DNA from: Cyclobacteriaceae bacterium
GTDB lineage: Bacteria; Bacteroidota; Bacteroidia; Cytophagales; Cyclobacteriaceae
Direction of reading: 5' to 3'
Assembly (NCBI GenBank): GCA_026989535.1
Contig: JALSJD010000151.1
Location: forward strand, 1-58,972
DNA length: 58,972 nucleotides
Each line of letters opens with the position of its first letter. Within the stretch, counting starts at the first letter, position 1. The notes under the pieces were generated by a model, which did no database searches, had not been told where the DNA came from, and worked only from the letters and a program-made list of their open reading frames with translations. Shown one piece after another: positions 43,469-52,100 of this stretch. The translations under genes were made by a program, and so were the position numbers.

Positions 43469-46400
43469 ATGAAAAACGCATACCAAAAACCGCTACTCTT
43501 ACTCATTGCATTTTTAGTGCTATTTAGTGCTCAAAGCATAGCCCAAAACTGGGATAAAATGTTATTGAAAATAAACACCACTTACGAAACTGGTGATTAT
43601 ATTAAAACCAAAAAATACTTAGTTAAGCTCAAGAAAAAGACCTCTAAAAAACTTGGCAAAGAAAATAAATATGTAGTTGAGTATTACCTCTTATCTGCTC
43701 GAAACAATTTAGCTCAGGGAATGCTGTCAGATTTTTCGACTGATATTAAAAAAGCCCTCGCCATGAGCGAAAAGGTCTTTACAGCAAACTCTGAAGACCA
43801 TATAAGTTATATGAACCGGGTTACTTCCTTGCTTATTTTAAATGGAGAAATTTTAAAAGCCTTTAACTTAGCTACAGAAGCACAAGCTAAAATGGAGGGT
43901 CTCCAAGCCTCGGAACGATTAGAGGCACTCACTAAGTTAAACTTAAGTGCGGCATATTCAGGTATGGGCTTTTATACAAAATCCATTGCGTATATTGATG
44001 AAAACAAAGACTACTTTTTAGGCAGAGCTATTACCAAAGAATCTTATGTTGACCCCAAAACCGGAAAGCTTAAAACAAAGAGGCTACCACAGAAAGAAGT
44101 TAATCAAAGGTTAGATGAATATGCGCAGTTGCTCAATTTAAGAGCCAATACCTATCGCTTAATGGGTAATTTTAAAAAGGCAGATACAGAATTTGAATTA
44201 GCAGGTGATTGGATTGATGACAATCTTGGAAAAGCCAGCATAAGGTATATTGAGAACCAATTGCAACATGGCAATCTGTTATCAGAAAATGGGGCGAACC
44301 AAAAAGTTACCAGAGAGTATTTCGAAACTGCTTTAAGTAAACTTAAAAAAGACCATAGCGAAGCGCATTATTTGGCATTGCAAGTGTACGAAAGCTTACT
44401 AAAAAATTATTTAGCTAGTAATGACAATTCTAAATTTAATAATTTAAAATCAGAATATGAACGGGTTATTAAAAAGTATTTTAATAAAAAAAGCTTGGTT
44501 TATATCCGTTTGCAAACTGTAGATTATAGCAGAAAACTTGACAAGAAGAACCCTAAAGGAATTGAAAGCTCTTGTTTAGCACTATTAACAGATTTAAAAA
44601 AAATACCGGCTATTCATAAACAACGAATTGAGTTGTATGAATATGCCTATCGAGCCGCCATCTTAAACAACTCTTATAAAAACGCAGATTCGTACCTAGA
44701 TAAAATTTTGGAGCAAAAAGACGGTCTTTATGGCTCTAATGCCCCAGAATATCATTTAACAAAAACAGAAGTAGCCAATTTTTACATAGATTATACTGAT
44801 AAAATAAATGAAGCAGGAGAAATTTATACTGCTTCTTTTGAAAAAATTGTAGCTCCTCAAATTAACTCAGGGCATATTAGTTATGTTAGAATCCAGAATC
44901 ATTTAAGTAAGTATTACGAATTATCCGATGATTTTGAGAAAGCAAAAGCATCGTTGGAAGATGCCCTTTTAGCTACCAGAGTAAAGTATAATACCACCGA
45001 TATTGCCTATGGAAGCGAGCTTGTAAAAATTGCAGACCTACAAATAAAAATAGGGGAGTATAAAGAAGCAAAAAAAAATATTGGTATTGCGCAAGACATT
45101 TTAGTAACACTTAAAAAGGATAAAGAGCAGCTGGTAGAATACGTACTTGCACTTGAAACCAATGCAAAATTAAGTGCAATGAAAGGCGATTATGAAAGTG
45201 CTAAAGATGACATTATCCGTTCTCAAAAATTACTTTCAAAAGCTACTAATTTAGTGGGCTATGACAATTTAATCTCTACTGTAAACTTAGCCGACATTTA
45301 TGTAAAATATGGACGAATTTCTAAAACAAGAGAAGCATTAGAAACTGTAATTAGTGATTATGAATCGTTATTTGGCCTTGAAAGTAATCGGCTTATCATA
45401 CCTCTATTAAGCTATGGTAACTTGCAATTGGTAAATGGAGAATATACCGATGCTGAAAAAAGCACTAGAAGGGCATTAAACATTGCAATAGCACAGTTTG
45501 GCGAAAACTCTTCGAGAACTGCTTTTTGCAAAAAACAACTTGCCGCTATTTATACTTCATTAGGCGATTATACCAAAGCTCTTGAAAATATCAACTCTAC
45601 CCTTAGTATTCAAAAATCAGTTTATGGCACTGAACATATAGAAGTAGCCAAATCGTTATCGCAGCTGGCGCTTATTAAGTTTTATAAAAATGAGCCACCC
45701 AAAACCATTGAACCCATTTTTGATGAGTCGAAAAAAATAATTGCAGCTAAAATAGGAAACAGGACACCAATGTACGCTGATGTAGTTAAAGGTTTATCTA
45801 TTATTTACATCGAGCAAAATAGGTTTGACGATGCATTCAATTCATTATCGCTAGCCGAAAGTATTTGGAAGCTAAGAATAAAAAACAAGAAAAACCTAAA
45901 CCTCGCAAGCATTTATTCCTTAACAGGAGATCTTTATTATCAACAAAAAAACTACGAAAAAGCAGAGGAAAAATACAATCAGGCAAAAAAACTGTACGAA
46001 GGTTTTTTTAGCGATAAACATCCTGACTATGTACAAGTACTTTCGAAACTATCGAAAGTATATTATATGCAAGGAGATAAGCGAAAGGCTAAGAAAACTA
46101 GCCAAGAGGTTATCTATAATTATAATGCATTTATCAAAATTTATTTCCCTGCATTAAGTGAGCGTGAAAAATCAGAGTATTGGAATAAAATAAAAACCGA
46201 TTTCGAATTTTTTAATACCATTGCCATTGAGTTTAAAGATGAAGATCCGGAGCTAATTGAACAGGTGTATAATAATGCACTTTCGACTAAAGCCATCTTA
46301 TTAAATTCATCTATAAAAATTAGAAGATCCATATTAAATGGCAATGATGAGGAGCTTAAGAAAAATTATATGGACTGGTTAGCCAAAAAAGAATTTTTAA

Positions 46401-47707
46401 CTACTGTTTTATCTATGAGTACAGATCAGTTGTATGAAAATGAGATTGACCCTGCACTTTTAATCGATGAAGTGGAACAATTGGAGAAGCAGCTGAGTGA
46501 AGGATCCGAATTATTTAGCAATAGCAATGATAAAAATAAAATTGCTTGGCAAAATGTTCAAGATGTATTAAACCGAGACGAAGTAGCCATTGAAATGGTA
46601 AGGTTTAGGTATTTTGACCATATTTTCACAGATTCTATTATTTACATGGGCGTTTATGTTAAAAATGCCAAAACACAAAAAATGCCAGGTATGTTTGTTA
46701 TCAATAACGGAAAAGACTTAGAGGGTAAGTATTTTAAAGTATATAGAAACAGCATTATTTACCGCATTAAAGATAGGTATTCGAATAAGCAGTACTGGAA
46801 ACCTATCATAGATGTAGTTGGAAACACTTCTTCGATTTATTTATCTGCTGATGGTGTTTATAACCAAATTAATTTAGAAGCCATACCAACCTCAGAAGGC
46901 AAGTATGTATTAGATAATTCGAATATCGTTTTGGTAAGCAACACGAAAGACATCTTCTTAAATGAACTAAACAAATCGAAGAATAAGGCATCAAACAGTG
47001 CTTCGATGTTCGGTAACCCCATTTATTATGTAGATGCCTCAAAGCCTAAAAAAGGAGGCATTGGGCAATTACCCGGTACCGAAAAGGAGGTGAATGCACT
47101 TATTCAATTATTAGATAAAAATGGATGGACTACCTCTGAAAACTTAGAATACGAAGCCACAGAGCGTGCTATTAAAGATGTAAAGAGTCCGAAAATATTT
47201 CATGTGGCAACCCATGGTTTTTTTACTCCCGCTCAGCAAGTTGCCCAAAATGCAGCTTCTGGTCAAAAAGAGGCTACCGCTTTAGAAAATCCACTTTTGA
47301 GAACAGGACTACTATTAACCGGAGCAGGCGATTTACTTAATAAAACGGAATATAATTATAATGAAGAAGATGGTATTTTAACGGCTTATGAAGCTATGAA
47401 TATGAATCTTGATAATACCGATTTAGTTGTGCTTAGTGCCTGCGAAACAGGCCTTGGAGAAACCAAAATGGGTGAAGGCGTGTATGGTTTACAACGAGCC
47501 TTTATGGTGGCAGGGGCTAAAACATTAATTATGAGTATGTTTAAAGTAGATGATACAGCTACCCAAAAGCTAATGGTTAATTTTTATCAAAAATGGTTAA
47601 CCACAGGCAATAAACGTCAATCGTTTGTAGAAGCTAAAAAAGAATTACGTAACGAATACGAAGACCCCATTTATTGGGGAGCCTTTATTATGATTGGGCT
47701 GGAATAG
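43469..47707 (+). CDS. Exported TPR-CHAT protein (caspase-like protease fold)
   Basis: A 1412-residue protein with signal peptide about 1-26 (LVLFSAQSIAQ), about 950 residues of TPR-type helices (SLGDYTKALENINSTLSIQ, DLYYQQKNYEKAEEKYNQA) and a C-terminal CHAT domain. The catalytic dyad of the caspase-like fold is intact: His1249 in FHVATHGFF and Cys1325 in VVLSACETGLG. Other CHAT marks are LSADGVYNQINLEAIP and GVYGLQRAFMVAGAKTLIMS. TPR-CHAT proteins in other bacteria include cytoplasmic proteases of defence systems, but this one appears exported. It follows the mutase gene by 88 bp. Substrate unknown. Confidence 0.9.
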   Translation: MKNAYQKPLLLLIAFLVLFSAQSIAQNWDKMLLKINTTYETGDYIKTKKYLVKLKKKTSKKLGKENKYVVEYYLLSARNNLAQGMLSDFSTDIKKALAMSEKVFTANSEDHISYMNRVTSLLILNGEILKAFNLATEAQAKMEGLQASERLEALTKLNLSAAYSGMGFYTKSIAYIDENKDYFLGRAITKESYVDPKTGKLKTKRLPQKEVNQRLDEYAQLLNLRANTYRLMGNFKKADTEFELAGDWIDDNLGKASIRYIENQLQHGNLLSENGANQKVTREYFETALSKLKKDHSEAHYLALQVYESLLKNYLASNDNSKFNNLKSEYERVIKKYFNKKSLVYIRLQTVDYSRKLDKKNPKGIESSCLALLTDLKKIPAIHKQRIELYEYAYRAAILNNSYKNADSYLDKILEQKDGLYGSNAPEYHLTKTEVANFYIDYTDKINEAGEIYTASFEKIVAPQINSGHISYVRIQNHLSKYYELSDDFEKAKASLEDALLATRVKYNTTDIAYGSELVKIADLQIKIGEYKEAKKNIGIAQDILVTLKKDKEQLVEYVLALETNAKLSAMKGDYESAKDDIIRSQKLLSKATNLVGYDNLISTVNLADIYVKYGRISKTREALETVISDYESLFGLESNRLIIPLLSYGNLQLVNGEYTDAEKSTRRALNIAIAQFGENSSRTAFCKKQLAAIYTSLGDYTKALENINSTLSIQKSVYGTEHIEVAKSLSQLALIKFYKNEPPKTIEPIFDESKKIIAAKIGNRTPMYADVVKGLSIIYIEQNRFDDAFNSLSLAESIWKLRIKNKKNLNLASIYSLTGDLYYQQKNYEKAEEKYNQAKKLYEGFFSDKHPDYVQVLSKLSKVYYMQGDKRKAKKTSQEVIYNYNAFIKIYFPALSEREKSEYWNKIKTDFEFFNTIAIEFKDEDPELIEQVYNNALSTKAILLNSSIKIRRSILNGNDEELKKNYMDWLAKKEFLTTVLSMSTDQLYENEIDPALLIDEVEQLEKQLSEGSELFSNSNDKNKIAWQNVQDVLNRDEVAIEMVRFRYFDHIFTDSIIYMGVYVKNAKTQKMPGMFVINNGKDLEGKYFKVYRNSIIYRIKDRYSNKQYWKPIIDVVGNTSSIYLSADGVYNQINLEAIPTSEGKYVLDNSNIVLVSNTKDIFLNELNKSKNKASNSASMFGNPIYYVDASKPKKGGIGQLPGTEKEVNALIQLLDKNGWTTSENLEYEATERAIKDVKSPKIFHVATHGFFTPAQQVAQNAASGQKEATALENPLLRTGLLLTGAGDLLNKTEYNYNEEDGILTAYEAMNMNLDNTDLVVLSACETGLGETKMGEGVYGLQRAFMVAGAKTLIMSMFKVDDTATQKLMVNFYQKWLTTGNKRQSFVEAKKELRNEYEDPIYWGAFIMIGLE

Positions 47708-47788
47708 GTTTTAAAGTTTCTACCCTGTATAATCAGTGCTCGTTATCAAAATAAATGCCCATTGATTGACGGAAATTAACCTAACCTG

Positions 47789-47824
47789 CATCATTCACAA
47801 ACAAATCCACAATTAGGGTATATT
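47789..47824 (+). repeat. Duplicate of the S9 peptidase gene 3' end (36 bp)
   Basis: These 36 bases match 49178-49213, which encode a stretch near the end of the S9 peptidase on the minus strand, with two differences. The block lies on the far side of the ATPase gene. A half copy of the palindrome motif, TGACGGAAATTA, is at 47767-47778. Confidence 0.75.
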
Positions 47825-47828
47825 AAAA

Positions 47829-47864
47829 ATGTAATTTCCGTCATGATCATGACGGAAATTACAT
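47829..47864. repeat. Perfect 36-bp palindrome, left of ATPase gene
   Basis: The left half is ATGTAATTTCCGTCATGA and the right half is its exact reverse complement. It begins 62 bp before the ATPase gene's 47927 start is reached through two direct repeats of a 26-base unit (TGACGGAAATTA...GCGTCA at 47850-47875 and 47882-47907). These repeats could be operator, promoter or recombination sites. Confidence 0.85.
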
Positions 47865-47926
47865 AAATAGCGTCATTAAATTGACGGAAATTATGTATAT
47901 TGCGTCAATTATTAATAAGTATTTTT

Positions 47927-49075
47927 ATGAAACCCATTAATAAATACCTTAAAAGAGCAATTGAGCCAATATTATTAGACCATTTGGTTCCTAATAAAGC
48001 TATTTTACTAATTGGGGCTCGAAGGGTTGGAAAAACGGAACTTATCAAACAAATAGCCACTATGGTTAAGGGTAACCCTATTTTGCTTCATGGGGGCAAC
48101 GATGAAACCCTTGATCTTTTACATGAAAAAACCACAACTAATTACAAACGCCTCCTTGGCAATGAAAAACTACTAATTATAGACGAGGCGCAAGAAGTGC
48201 CTTATATTGGAGCTAAAATTAAGCTAATGCTCGATACCATTGAGGGCATTATGGTAATTGCAACGGGTTCTTCTGCATTTGATTTAACCAATAAATTAGG
48301 CGAACCGCTTGTTGGTAGAAAAGCTACTTTTCACCTTTATCCTTTTGCTCAAATGGAATTTTCTACTATTGAAAACTACCCGCAAACTAAATCAAAATTA
48401 AAAGAAAGACTTGTTTTGGGTACTTACCCAGAACTCGAGCACATACATACACTTAATAAAAAGATAGACTATTTAAAAGAAATAATTAATTCCTATTTAC
48501 TAAAAGATATTTTAGCCTTTGAGGGTATTAAAAATAGAGAGGTGATTTTATCATTATTACGTAAAATTGCTTTTAGAGTAGGTAGTGAAATTTCCATTGA
48601 AGGGCTGGGTAACGAACTTGGCATAAGTAAAAACACCGTTGATAAATACCTTGAGCTGCTTTCTAAGGTATTCGTGATTCATAAAGTTACTGGCTTTAGC
48701 CGCAATTTAGATAACGAAATTACCAAAATGAACAAATGGTATTTTTTTGACAACGGTATTCGTAATGCACTTATATCTAACTTTAATATGCTTGATTTAC
48801 GTGATGATGTGGGGGCATTATGGGAGAATTATTTAATCTCAGAGCGATTAAAATACTTATCATATACTCGTTCGCATGCAAGCCACTATTTCTGGCGTAC
48901 GCACCGTAAACAAGAAATTGATTGGGTAGAAGAAAAGGATGGACAATTGTTTGCTTATGAAATTAAATGGAGAACCAATAAAACACCTTTAGCTCCTAGT
49001 GCTTGGGTGAAGGCTTACCCTAAAGCTAGCTTTCAGGTAATTACTCCTGATAATTATATGGATTTTATTACTTGA
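47927..49075 (+). CDS. AAA_14/DUF4143-type ATPase with C-terminal nuclease-like domain
   Basis: A 382-residue protein starting at ATG 47927; a TTG at 47900 would lie inside the repeat. Seen: Walker A LIGARRVGKTEL (about 27-38), Walker B LLIIDEAQEVP, sensor VIATGSSAFDL, then a winged-helix part (LGNELGISKNTVDKYLELLS). The C-terminal DUF4143-type domain carries EIDWVEEKDGQLFAYEIKW, which fits an E/D-x(n)-E-x-K nuclease core. Such ATPases are widespread and patchily distributed in bacteria, function unclear. It is flanked on both sides by near-identical 36-bp palindromes and duplicated DNA, so it looks inserted. Confidence 0.88.
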   Translation: MKPINKYLKRAIEPILLDHLVPNKAILLIGARRVGKTELIKQIATMVKGNPILLHGGNDETLDLLHEKTTTNYKRLLGNEKLLIIDEAQEVPYIGAKIKLMLDTIEGIMVIATGSSAFDLTNKLGEPLVGRKATFHLYPFAQMEFSTIENYPQTKSKLKERLVLGTYPELEHIHTLNKKIDYLKEIINSYLLKDILAFEGIKNREVILSLLRKIAFRVGSEISIEGLGNELGISKNTVDKYLELLSKVFVIHKVTGFSRNLDNEITKMNKWYFFDNGIRNALISNFNMLDLRDDVGALWENYLISERLKYLSYTRSHASHYFWRTHRKQEIDWVEEKDGQLFAYEIKWRTNKTPLAPSAWVKAYPKASFQVITPDNYMDFIT

Positions 49076-49094
49076 CTGGTACGTTGCTTTAAAA

Positions 49095-49130
49095 ATGTAA
49101 TTTCCGTCATGATGGTGACGGAAATTACAT
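49095..49130. repeat. 36-bp palindrome, right of ATPase gene
   Basis: The same sequence as the left palindrome except for two central bases (ATGATGGTGAC instead of ATGATCATGAC), leaving 15-bp perfect arms. It overlaps a third copy of the 26-base unit at 49116-49141. The distance between the two palindromes is 1266 bp, start to start. Confidence 0.85.
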
Positions 49131-49148
49131 GAATAGCGTCAGTTATAT

Positions 49149-52100
49149 CTAATTCTTAGCTGCCAAATTCTCTTTCTCATCATTCACAAACAAAGCCACA
49201 ATTAGGGCATATTGCTTGGCTAGGTTACGGATGTAATCGAACCTGCCAGCTTGCCCTCCGTGCCCAGAATGCAATCGGGTGAGAAGTAGAATCTCGTTAT
49301 CATTAGTTTTTGTAGCTCTTAGCTTGGCTACCATTTTAGCAGGCTCCCAATACCCTACTTGCTGGTCGCTTAGGCCAGTAGTAAATAGCAAAGTGGGGTA
49401 CTCTTGCGCAGTAACATTATCGTAAGGCGAGTAGGATTTTATATATTTAAACTGTTTTTTAATGTTGGGGTTTCCCCATTCCTCGTATTCCCCAGTGGTA
49501 AGAGGTAGCTTATCATCAAGCATCGTGTTTATTACATCTACAAAAGGCACATCTAACACAATAAGCTTGTATAAATCGGGTGCCATATTGGCCACAGCCC
49601 CCATCAGCAAGCCACCCGCACTTGCCCCTTCAGCTACAATATTCCCTTTAAGGGCATATTCTTCCTCAATTAAATAGTGGGTGCAATCGATAAAATCATA
49701 AAATGTGTTTTTCTTATTTAACAATTTGCCGTCTTCGTACCAGTAATACCCCTTATCGGATCCTCCTCGTATATGTGGAATGGCTACTGTAAAGCCTCTT
49801 TCGAGCAATGGGTAAAAGTTGAGATTAAAACCAACAGACATAGAAGAGCCGTAAGAACCATAACTGGTTATATATACTTTTCGTTTAGGGAGATCCAATT
49901 TTTTTCTAAAATATTTTTTATAGATAATTGTCATTGGAATCTCTTCGCCATCGCGAGCTTTTACCATTACACGGGCCACTTTTAGCCCCCAGGAGCTAAC
50001 AGGATAGGGTAATTTTTGCTTTTTAAGCACTGTTTTTTCCTCTTTGGGTATATTATAAGAATAGGTTGTAAGCGGTGTTTTAGCCGTGCTATAGTTTATG
50101 CGAATGGAATCAATATCATATGCTCGAGAAATAGAAGCATTTACATGGTGTATTTCTTTTTTAAACTTTACCGTATGCTTTTTACCTGTTGCCCTTTCAA
50201 TCATCCGAATCCTATTTTGGGCATTATCTTTATCGGTAACCACATAGTATTTTTTTAATATATCAAACCCTACAAGCATATGATCTTTGTCTTCGGGTAA
50301 TATTACTTTCCAATTCGATTTGTTAATATTGCTGGTATCTACCGAAACCACCTTGTAGTTTTTGGCATTTTCGTTGGTTGTAAAATAAAATCGATCATCT
50401 ACCTGATAAGTGGAATACATAATTCCCTGCGTGCGAGGATAAATAATTTTTAAGTTTGGAGTTTCTTCATCAATTCTAAAATAATAAGTTTCTGAAGTAG
50501 TAGAGCTTGAAGTTGAAAGGAAGACAATATCCCGGGTTTTATTTTTAGAAACATAGATGTCAAATTTAGGGTCATTCTCTACATACAACACTTTATCTTC
50601 TTTTTGAGGTGTATTTAAAATATGAATTTTAACCATATACGACCGGTTTGTTTTCTTTTCCTGCACCGTATAAAGAACAGATTTATTATCAATCCATACA
50701 AAATCTGACCCGTTCATAATCGAGTCTTGCAGTATTTTGCCCGATGTTAAGTTTTTAAATTTTAAAGTAACCTTACTGCTACCTGTGGTATTTTCGAAAA
50801 ATGCGATTAAATTATCGTTAGGACTGGGAGTAGGGAAACCAGCAGAATAATAATCGTATTTTTTTGCCAGTGCTCTGGTGTCAAGTAGAATTTCTCGGTT
50901 GGTGCTGTCTAAATTTGTTCTAAAATAAACAGGGTATTCTTCTTCAAATCCATATTCGGTATAATATTTATATCCTCTAATTTGTGTGGGTAAAGAGGTG
51001 TATTCTTTCTCTATATGGCTTAGCATTTCTCTATATAAAATCCGCTCTTGTTTTCGTAAAGGGATAAAGTAATTTTTTGCATACTTATTTTCGGCATCTA
51101 TGTACTCCATTACTTCATTATTATAGAGAGGGGCACTAGTATCTTTAAGCCAGGCATAATTATCGGTATAGGTTTTACCGTGGATGGAGTAATTATGCGG
51201 AATAGTTTTTGCAACAGGAGGCCTTAGAGTAGTATCTTTTCTATGCTTATCTTCAAATTGTTTTTCTAATGGTTTTTTTAATTCCATTTCTGCCCTTACT
51301 TCTTTTGAGATTTTAAATTGAGGATGTTCTTTCATATAACTTACCCAAAATTCATTATTGTAGGCAAGTGGAAGGTCGTATAATTGATTAAAATCTGAGT
51401 TAATAAAAAGGCTATCTTTAGGAAAAGGTTTTACTCGTTTAGGGAGATTGTTTTCGATAAATAACTCTGCTACTGCTGAATACGGAGTAGTTTCGTTTTC
51501 AATGGTATCTTTAAAGATAAACTCATCCTCCATTCGTACATAAGCTAAGCTGTACTTGTTATTAAATTTTTTGTACTCCAAGTTAATTTTATAATCAAAG
51601 TGTTTAAGTGCCATCACCTTGTATGTGCAGATGTACTTTTTTAAATAAAGAGGAACGCTTACCGTAATTTTTCTTACAGCATAATCATCCTGATTTATGA
51701 AAATATCACCTTCAAGAAAATACTTCATATTCTTCCATAATTTTAATGGAGTCTTTTTATCAGCTACTTTCTCAATTTCTTCTTTTTTAAATTTCGATTT
51801 AAAATGCAGTACATACTCCCACTCATTTTTGTCGTTTTCCTTTTCAGTTACTGTGTAAATAAATTTATCCTTTTTTTTAAACCACATAAATTCTTCTAAA
51901 TATTTAATCCGGTCTCTTCCTATAAGGTTTAGCGGTCCGCCTTCAATATTTGCATTCATTCGCTCCCGGGTAAGGTTATCGCTCGATCTGGAATCAACAA
52001 CTTTTGCTTCTTCTTTTTTTAAGGTACTTCTAAAAAAATGAAGCCGATGAAGCCTGTTGCCTGCATAATAAGACGAATAACCCGTAGTTAATATATTATA

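Follow-up and report, generated by a model that had tools for sequence, protein, structure and literature searches.

Results

Site lattice and gene at the locus

The window (the whole stretch of 58,972 nucleotides that was analysed) carries an ATPase-nuclease gene which is accompanied on both sides by repeated sites (Table 1). An earlier note on this DNA had described one AAA_14/DUF4143 gene with a nuclease-like C-terminus, framed by a perfect 36-bp palindrome, a near-identical second palindrome and a 26-base unit occurring twice before and once after the gene, and this description was confirmed throughout. The first palindrome has two 18-nt arms and no loop, and the 26-base unit TGACGGAAATTA...GCGTCA is found in one orientation throughout, its third copy at 49116-49141. 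Palindromes and 26-base units are alternative pairings of half-sites in one alternating 16-bp lattice. The half-site comprises 10 bp (TGACGGAAAT type), its orientation flips every 16 bp, like-oriented copies are 32 bp apart, and the dyads of the lattice are centred on 6-bp spacers. Five half-sites lie 5' of the ATPase start and three 3' of its stop, the latter within a 53-bp copy of the upstream lattice. A 36-bp fragment matching the 3' terminus of the neighbouring S9-peptidase gene was found left of the lattice. The left neighbour of the locus (43469-47707) encodes a 1412-aa TPR-CHAT protein, CHAT being a caspase-like domain.

In the 3.82-Mb assembly TGACGGAAATTA was counted six times, every time at the window locus; with at most one mismatch, seven matches were obtained within the window, compared to 0.45 expected. 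A genome-wide search for the full-site pattern (at most one mismatch) returned three places, all at the window gene, and none for the backwards control. The copy count proposed in the earlier note thus places the full sites at one locus only and none around other genes, and the palindromes scattered around unrelated genes that would have spoken against its reading are not seen in the assembly. Being confined to a single locus, the palindrome does not show the genome-wide dispersal of REP- or MITE-like elements, and the 6-bp spacing together with the alternating half-sites rules out a CRISPR-like array. A homing endonuclease gene splits its own recognition site; here complete sites adjoin the gene.

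Table 1 Features of the lattice and the ATPase-nuclease gene in the window.
Feature	Position	Strand	Remarks
Lone half-site left of the lattice	47767-47778	+	from the search of the window for TGACGGAAATTA, at most one mismatch
36-bp copy of the S9-peptidase gene 3' end	47789-47824		94% identical; native end at 49178-49213, judged from sister species
Perfect 36-bp palindrome	47829-47864		two outward-facing half-sites, 6-bp spacer between them
Upstream lattice	47834-47907		five half-sites of 10 bp at 16-bp intervals, orientation alternating
Upstream half-sites	47834-47843, 47850-47859, 47866-47875, 47882-47891, 47898-47907	-, +, -, +, -	
Full 26-bp site 1	47850-47875	+	two inward-facing half-sites
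Full 26-bp site 2	47882-47907	+	from the genome-wide full-site pattern search
ATPase-nuclease gene	47927-49075	+	382 aa; ATG at 47927; AAA_14/STAND-like ATPase, winged helix, DUF4143 with PD-(D/E)XK motif; PADLOC PDC-S01
Walker A (GARRVGKT)	48014-48037	+	Walker residues conserved in the family
Walker B (D86-E87)	48182-48187	+	Walker residues conserved in the family
S234-K235-N236 codons	48626-48634	+	recognition-helix tip in the winged helix; half-site base 5 covaries with 234, base 7 with 235 and base 6 with 236
Nuclease motif D332...E345-x-K347 (with E306)	48920-48967	+	each residue kept in 97-100% of 118 members
53-bp copy of the upstream lattice	49089-49141		94% identical; contains the downstream half-sites
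Second palindrome	49095-49130		15-nt arms, 6-nt centre
Downstream lattice copy	49100-49141		half-sites 49100-49109 (-), 49116-49125 (+), 49132-49141 (-)

Domain architecture of the protein

Pfam assigned AAA_14 (E 6e-24) and DUF4143 (E 2e-40) to the window gene, and PADLOC profile PDLC04789 (PDC-S01) matched residues 8-380 over profile positions 3-373 of 375 (E 1.4e-150). As in PDC-S01, one gene combines an ATPase with a PD-(D/E)XK domain whose catalytic residues are conserved; over 118 family members the Walker and nuclease residues (E306, D332, E345, K347) are conserved to 96-100%. A sequence search of solved structures gave no close relative of the window protein. Residues 2-284 of the AlphaFold model, compared with known structures, resemble most closely the archaeal ATPases 2qen/2fna (Z 17.1 for 2qen), followed by plant and animal NLR/STAND cores (RPP1 15.4, CED-4 14.8), Orc/Cdc6 and MuB/TnsC. 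The model thereby shows the NBD-HD-WHD core fold of STAND proteins. The repeat sensor at the C-terminus of STAND proteins is missing: no Pfam repeat family was detected, and the C-terminus is DUF4143/nuclease-like. Structure matches of the C-terminal part alone were mostly PD-(D/E)XK nucleases (Can2, McrC, Hjc, TnsA, EcoRV) with a best Z of 7.0, and Foldseek returned no match for this part at E 0.001, so that the nuclease-like C-terminus combines a conserved motif with modest support for the fold. In the model (pLDDT 91) residues 234-236 occupy the N-terminus of the recognition helix within the winged-helix domain. At three positions the window protein departs from residues that are 92% conserved in the family (Q217R, E226G and R262D; codons at 48575, 48602 and 48710), and because these near-invariant residues differ the protein may be in early decay.

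Conservation of the lattice in the family

For comparison, a set of 118 distinct family members was assembled, including that of the window (38-100% identity, one duplicate protein dropped), by searching 59 and 395 genomes and by a peptide-pattern search of a genome collection; the lowest-scoring rows of one search as well as fragments and remote matches (L040-L052) were left out. When the 160 bp preceding the start were matched against themselves, 32 was the best lag in 68/118 members at a threshold of at least 18/22 matches, and at least 15/22 matches at this period were reached by 100 of the 118, the window among them. At the latter threshold a lag of 64 was found in 35 loci and a lag of 33 in nine, lags other than 31-33 and 64 occurred in 1.6 loci on average, and the lag-32 controls were flat (1/115 far upstream, 0/117 far downstream). 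A clear 32-bp repeat is absent in 18/118 members. The period is constant and the repeated sequence is mostly different between members, for which the TGACGGAATT, TCACTTAATT, TTCACCAAAA and TCGAAAAATT types are examples. With a first site model, seeded with the window-like motif TGACGG and compared with simple shuffles, the alternating 16-bp half-site arrangement outscored the best of 118 shuffled sequences in 76/118 loci. Positions 10-13 of the half-site model are mostly AATT and position 8 has almost no common letter; single family copies contain several half-sites, up to about ten. A copy of the lattice 3' of the gene was detected in only 7 of 92 testable loci including the window (at least 21/24 matches; reversed-unit control at most 18). 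A lattice-like site behind the genes of L084-L086 was not counted, as pieces of this region recur elsewhere in the genus.

Repeats or palindromes upstream of the start are also found outside the clade, at p ≤ 0.05 in 9/14 members with 0/14 in the control (L042 has no entry in this count). Six plasmid-borne members from outside Bacteroidota were examined by two tests with uncorrected p values: those of Treponema (32 bp, p 0.01, first test only), Agrobacterium (22 bp, p 0.04), Thermus (palindrome, p 0.04) and Wolbachia (inverted repeat, p 0.01) were positive in one test each, those of Lactobacillus and Desulfosarcina in neither. Four paralogues of the window's own genome that stand outside the clade (L020, L021, L023, L025) show other upstream geometries: a long palindrome that abuts the start, repeat periods of 33 bp and 22 bp, and an inverted repeat with 20-bp arms. 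Furthermore, two tandem same-strand AAA_14/DUF4143 genes of different clades (L018, G000:C107 1494-4106) have separate types of upstream repeat, an inverted repeat and 32-bp repeats.

Covariation of recognition helix and half-site

Protein columns and half-site bases were compared over all pairs of the 88/118 loci with a lattice score above 0, the 30 loci scoring 0 or less being left out. After correction for overall identity, the columns most strongly associated with half-site positions 5-9 were 236, 234 and 235 (r 0.48, 0.39 and 0.33), against a standard deviation of 0.07 over the columns and a highest value of 0.25 in 300 label permutations. Residue 234 pairs with base 5, residue 236 with base 6 and residue 235 with base 7. 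In these 88 loci N236 goes with A (52/52), D234 with C (31/32), S234 with G (34/38) and K235 with C (62/63); no single base belongs to N234 or R235. The window protein, with the triplet SKN and the half-site bases GAC, agrees with this code. A second read-out, in which positions 5-9 carried no motif weight in site finding, used 106/135 loci; 29 loci with a score of at most 4 and five identical or overlapping P0003 loci were left out. It gave the same leading columns (236, r 0.53; 235, r 0.36; 234, r 0.33), and its training loci yielded N236-A in 49/49, D234-C in 31/38, S234-G in 33/38 and K235-C in 55/58 cases. Among 17 further loci the lattice was readable in 11, and in these the code was correct in 8/8, 9/9 and 8/8 cases where it applied, although many of them are SKN relatives; the other six, with weak lattices, are the SKT group (L252-L259) and L269.

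Since the label-permutation test ignores the tree, disjoint closest pairs were analysed in addition. In 53 such pairs base 6 changes in 17/20 with a changed residue 236 versus 5/33 with an unchanged one (Fisher p 1e-6, the best of 317 columns); the corresponding values are p 0.001 for 235 and base 7 and p 0.02 for 234 and base 5. An avoidance of equal codes within genomes was considered and dropped, as 1/40 same-genome pairs shared the helix triplet with 3.2 expected (P 0.17, not significant). One locus (L155, G086:C10) holds two adjacent clade ATPases on opposite strands with the helix triplets DSK and NKV.

These results provide strong computational evidence that each family protein reads the lattice next to its own promoter. 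Given this covariation, the full sites found only at the gene and the sharing of lattice and gene between differing flanks (see below), the ATPase of the window very probably recognises these half-site sequences. The earlier suggestion that the ATPase may recognise its own ends is thereby upheld as far as recognition is concerned; the repeats, which precede the start in most members and have so few downstream copies, are not mainly ends.

Promoter and neighbouring genes

TAnnTTTG, the -7 box of the Bacteroidota type, occurs within 100 bp 5' of the start in 81/118 members, compared to four in a control stretch from -400 to -300. Measured from the lattice end, box positions range from 57 bp inside it to 48 bp outside and cluster near -15, 0 and +10 to +16, as would fit an operator that overlaps or adjoins the promoter. 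An exact box is not present before the ATG of the window gene. The lattice may repress expression, activation being the alternative, and autorepression, assembly and defence are inferred. The RNA of a Thermus AAA_14/DUF4143 gene (TT_P0211) rose 6.6-fold in the presence of a plasmid, only with Argonaute present, according to PMC4406477, which also labels the gene a predicted transposase. This rise would fit induction by an invader, with the reservation that the Thermus gene is a distant relative.

The window gene is followed 73 bp further on by the convergent S9 gene, and the co-directional partner gene of a toxin-antitoxin pair is missing at the locus. In 37/136 loci a co-directional ORF of at least 80 aa starts within 200 bp; the nearest 22 are by eye mutually unrelated except inside the L252/L255 group. 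Consequently, a constant operon partner was rejected, only this group having large ATPase-like genes within 20 bp, which we take to be KAP- and OLD-like. On Bacteroides/Phocaeicola plasmids (L183, L184) a clade member adjoins the RteC gene of an element that carries tet(Q); near-identical copies and relatives have other ATPase-like genes behind them at a distance of no more than 20 bp.

History and possible transfer of the locus

In the genus of the window one genome (G004) has the same S9 gene with two sites and a truncated form of the ATPase gene next to it, the downstream copy being absent, and a second (G002) keeps a decayed remnant approximately 2.6 kb from the S9 gene. The locus is, judged by these sequences, common to the genus and decaying in the sister species, and because remnants persist at or near the same S9 gene no recent jump is seen. 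Three clade paralogues in the window's genome have other site sequences, and the several genome copies typical of a transposable element are missing, the sites being restricted to one locus. The 36-bp S9 copy was considered as a target-site duplication and rejected; since the right copy looks native, with similar tails in sister species, a local duplication is likelier. The similar divergence of the lattice copy and the S9 fragment suggests that both may stem from one local duplication event.

Among other members the flanks can differ. Two same-genus pairs, L191/L192 (82%) and L187/L189 (79%), share lattice and gene, and the surrounding 12-19 kb share nothing more or only short repeats. In a Bacteroidales group homology breaks at start-85/-89 on the left or at end+1/+10 on the right: besides the gene, one member has the left-hand 1.5 kb in common and another the right-hand 1.5 kb. 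L085 and L086 have start-106 to end+105 in common at 93.6% with a backbone of 75-83%, and two genomes of the genus of L085 contain both neighbour genes with the cassette absent. This pair was abandoned as proof of a jump, because both loci sit between the same two neighbour genes (L086 with extra genes on either side) and the flanks of L084/L086 are 90% identical versus 93.9% for the cassette; the arrangement also suits a single old insertion to which neighbours were added later. The search for empty sites called for in the earlier note thus produced cassette-free neighbourhoods and no clean target-site duplication, and the 36-bp copy in the window does not coincide with defined ends. The same approach retrieved only dispersed repeats in the genus of G063, and the G305 region considered as an empty site for L154 is rearranged and repeat-rich. 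Flank queries matched short dispersed repeats about 50 times each in G329 and G305, and a repeat of about 330 bp at dozens of places in G063, G146 and G210. Family members were detected in 244 of 72,556 plasmid records (E 1e-10), and a search of viral contigs with P0003 gave no relatives. Above the Pfam cut-off the window gene contains only AAA_14 and DUF4143 and no transposase or recombinase domain.

Discussion

The locus is probably best described as a stand-alone ATPase-nuclease gene whose private operator is read by its own protein. This protein would consist of an ATPase core of the NLR/Orc-like kind (NBD, helical domain and winged helix) followed by a nuclease of the PD-(D/E)XK type. As the covariation suggests, the S234-K235-N236 tip would recognise the bases G, A and C (positions 5-7) in every half-site of the lattice preceding its gene. 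The constant spacing points to molecules that bind adjacent alternating half-sites, 16 bp corresponding to approximately 1.5 helical turns, and would bring like-oriented sites, 32 bp apart, to one face of the DNA. The occupied lattice could cover or abut the promoter and thus hold expression down; an invader or a change in nucleotide state might then remove the protein, whereupon the gene would be induced and the nuclease would act. Lattice and gene would travel together, as the shared breakpoints indicate, if the protein were uncontrollable without its own sites, and the three downstream half-sites of the window would derive from the upstream lattice by local copying. A further-reaching version, to which we give a small share of belief, assumes that the lattice seeds an ATP-dependent assembly of an NLR-like DNA-reading nuclease: promoter DNA would serve as 'self' tag and sensor at once, competing DNA or a phage factor would release the protein, and each 1.3-kb cassette would have its own code. 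If this were true, many independent switches could coexist in a genome and spread as such cassettes.

The earlier note had regarded the locus as a self-contained mobile or selfish unit, and a minimal mobile element consisting of lattice and gene, mobilised by the ATPase-nuclease with the lattices as recognised ends, has to be weighed accordingly. The same-genus pairs with differing flanks, the Bacteroidales breakpoints where other pairs keep a 1.5-kb homologous flank, the cassette shared by L085 and L086 with its cassette-free relatives, the lattice copies behind some genes and the plasmid-borne members all agree with such an element. Transposase domain and demonstrated target-site duplication are missing, however, the downstream copy is rare, the full sites are confined to one genomic locus and this locus is shared with the sister species; L085/L086 keep both neighbour genes, which one old insertion also explains, and shared limits would be expected for any route of acquisition if promoter and gene form the smallest useful piece. 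Because downstream copies are found in so few loci and the truncated gene of a sister species still adjoins the S9-peptidase gene, the mobile-unit reading is supported only in part, by lattice and gene being common to related loci whose flanks are unrelated, and as a whole we consider it unlikely. Still less probable is a lattice acting as a tether that silences a harmful nuclease, whose release upon loss of the locus would make the gene a one-gene addiction module with a DNA antidote. Conserved nuclease residues, the lack of a constant partner gene, several half-sites per copy and the likeness of the model to NLR/STAND cores would suit this idea, yet loss appears to be frequent, with a remnant and a truncated gene in the window's own genus. 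Palindromes that are AT-rich and close to start and stop could also represent RNA-level structures such as leader hairpins and terminators, or chance low-complexity DNA; given the covariation of half-site bases with recognition-helix residues, the period of 32 bp that stays constant despite sequence change and the flat far-flank controls, this is very improbable. The interpretation moves from an element with ends to an ATPase-nuclease whose private operator, read by the protein itself, travels along with the gene.

For this self-read operator the pairing of helix and promoter across the clade offers a handle on the control of common, unexplained genes suspected of an anti-phage role. Three residues predict the binding sites of further clade members, and the function of PDC-S01 genes becomes open to direct experiment.

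Comparison with known systems

The nearest known system is PDC-S01, which we take to be COG1373 in its AAA_14/DUF4143 form and which shares with the window protein the PDLC04789 match and the layout of ATPase and PD-(D/E)XK domain in a single gene. Published reports describe it as a very abundant single-gene candidate in which an ATPase is fused to PD-(D/E)XK (PMC12988326; PMC13356809). With 29,494 detections in bacteria and 9,986 in archaea it is said to rank fourth in frequency among the defence types of prokaryotes, and most PDCs still await experimental proof (PMC12988326). Searches of the open literature gave no account of sites upstream of PDC-S01-type genes, of their regulation by their own products or of a code in the winged helix.

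Regulators such as the WYL family (BrxR/CapW) and RptR control the transcription of defence loci, in a manner similar to the regulation proposed here; there the regulator is a separate protein, whereas in the window regulator and suspected effector would be one polypeptide. Orc1/Cdc6 combine an ATPase with a winged helix and match the fold of the model, and iteron-binding Rep proteins use arrays of sites; the window gene differs from both in its fused nuclease-like domain and in the position of the sites before its own start. The folds of Tn7 TnsA (PD-(D/E)XK) and TnsC (AAA+) both have relatives in the single window protein, which, unlike Tn7, comes without a TnsB-like transposase domain and proven ends. 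With the STAND ATPases (NLRs, CED-4, Avs) and 2qen/2fna the model shares its core fold; STAND ATPases end in a repeat sensor and the window protein in a nuclease-like domain. The winged helix is a regulatory domain in NLR/STAND proteins, whereas that of the window protein appears to read DNA.
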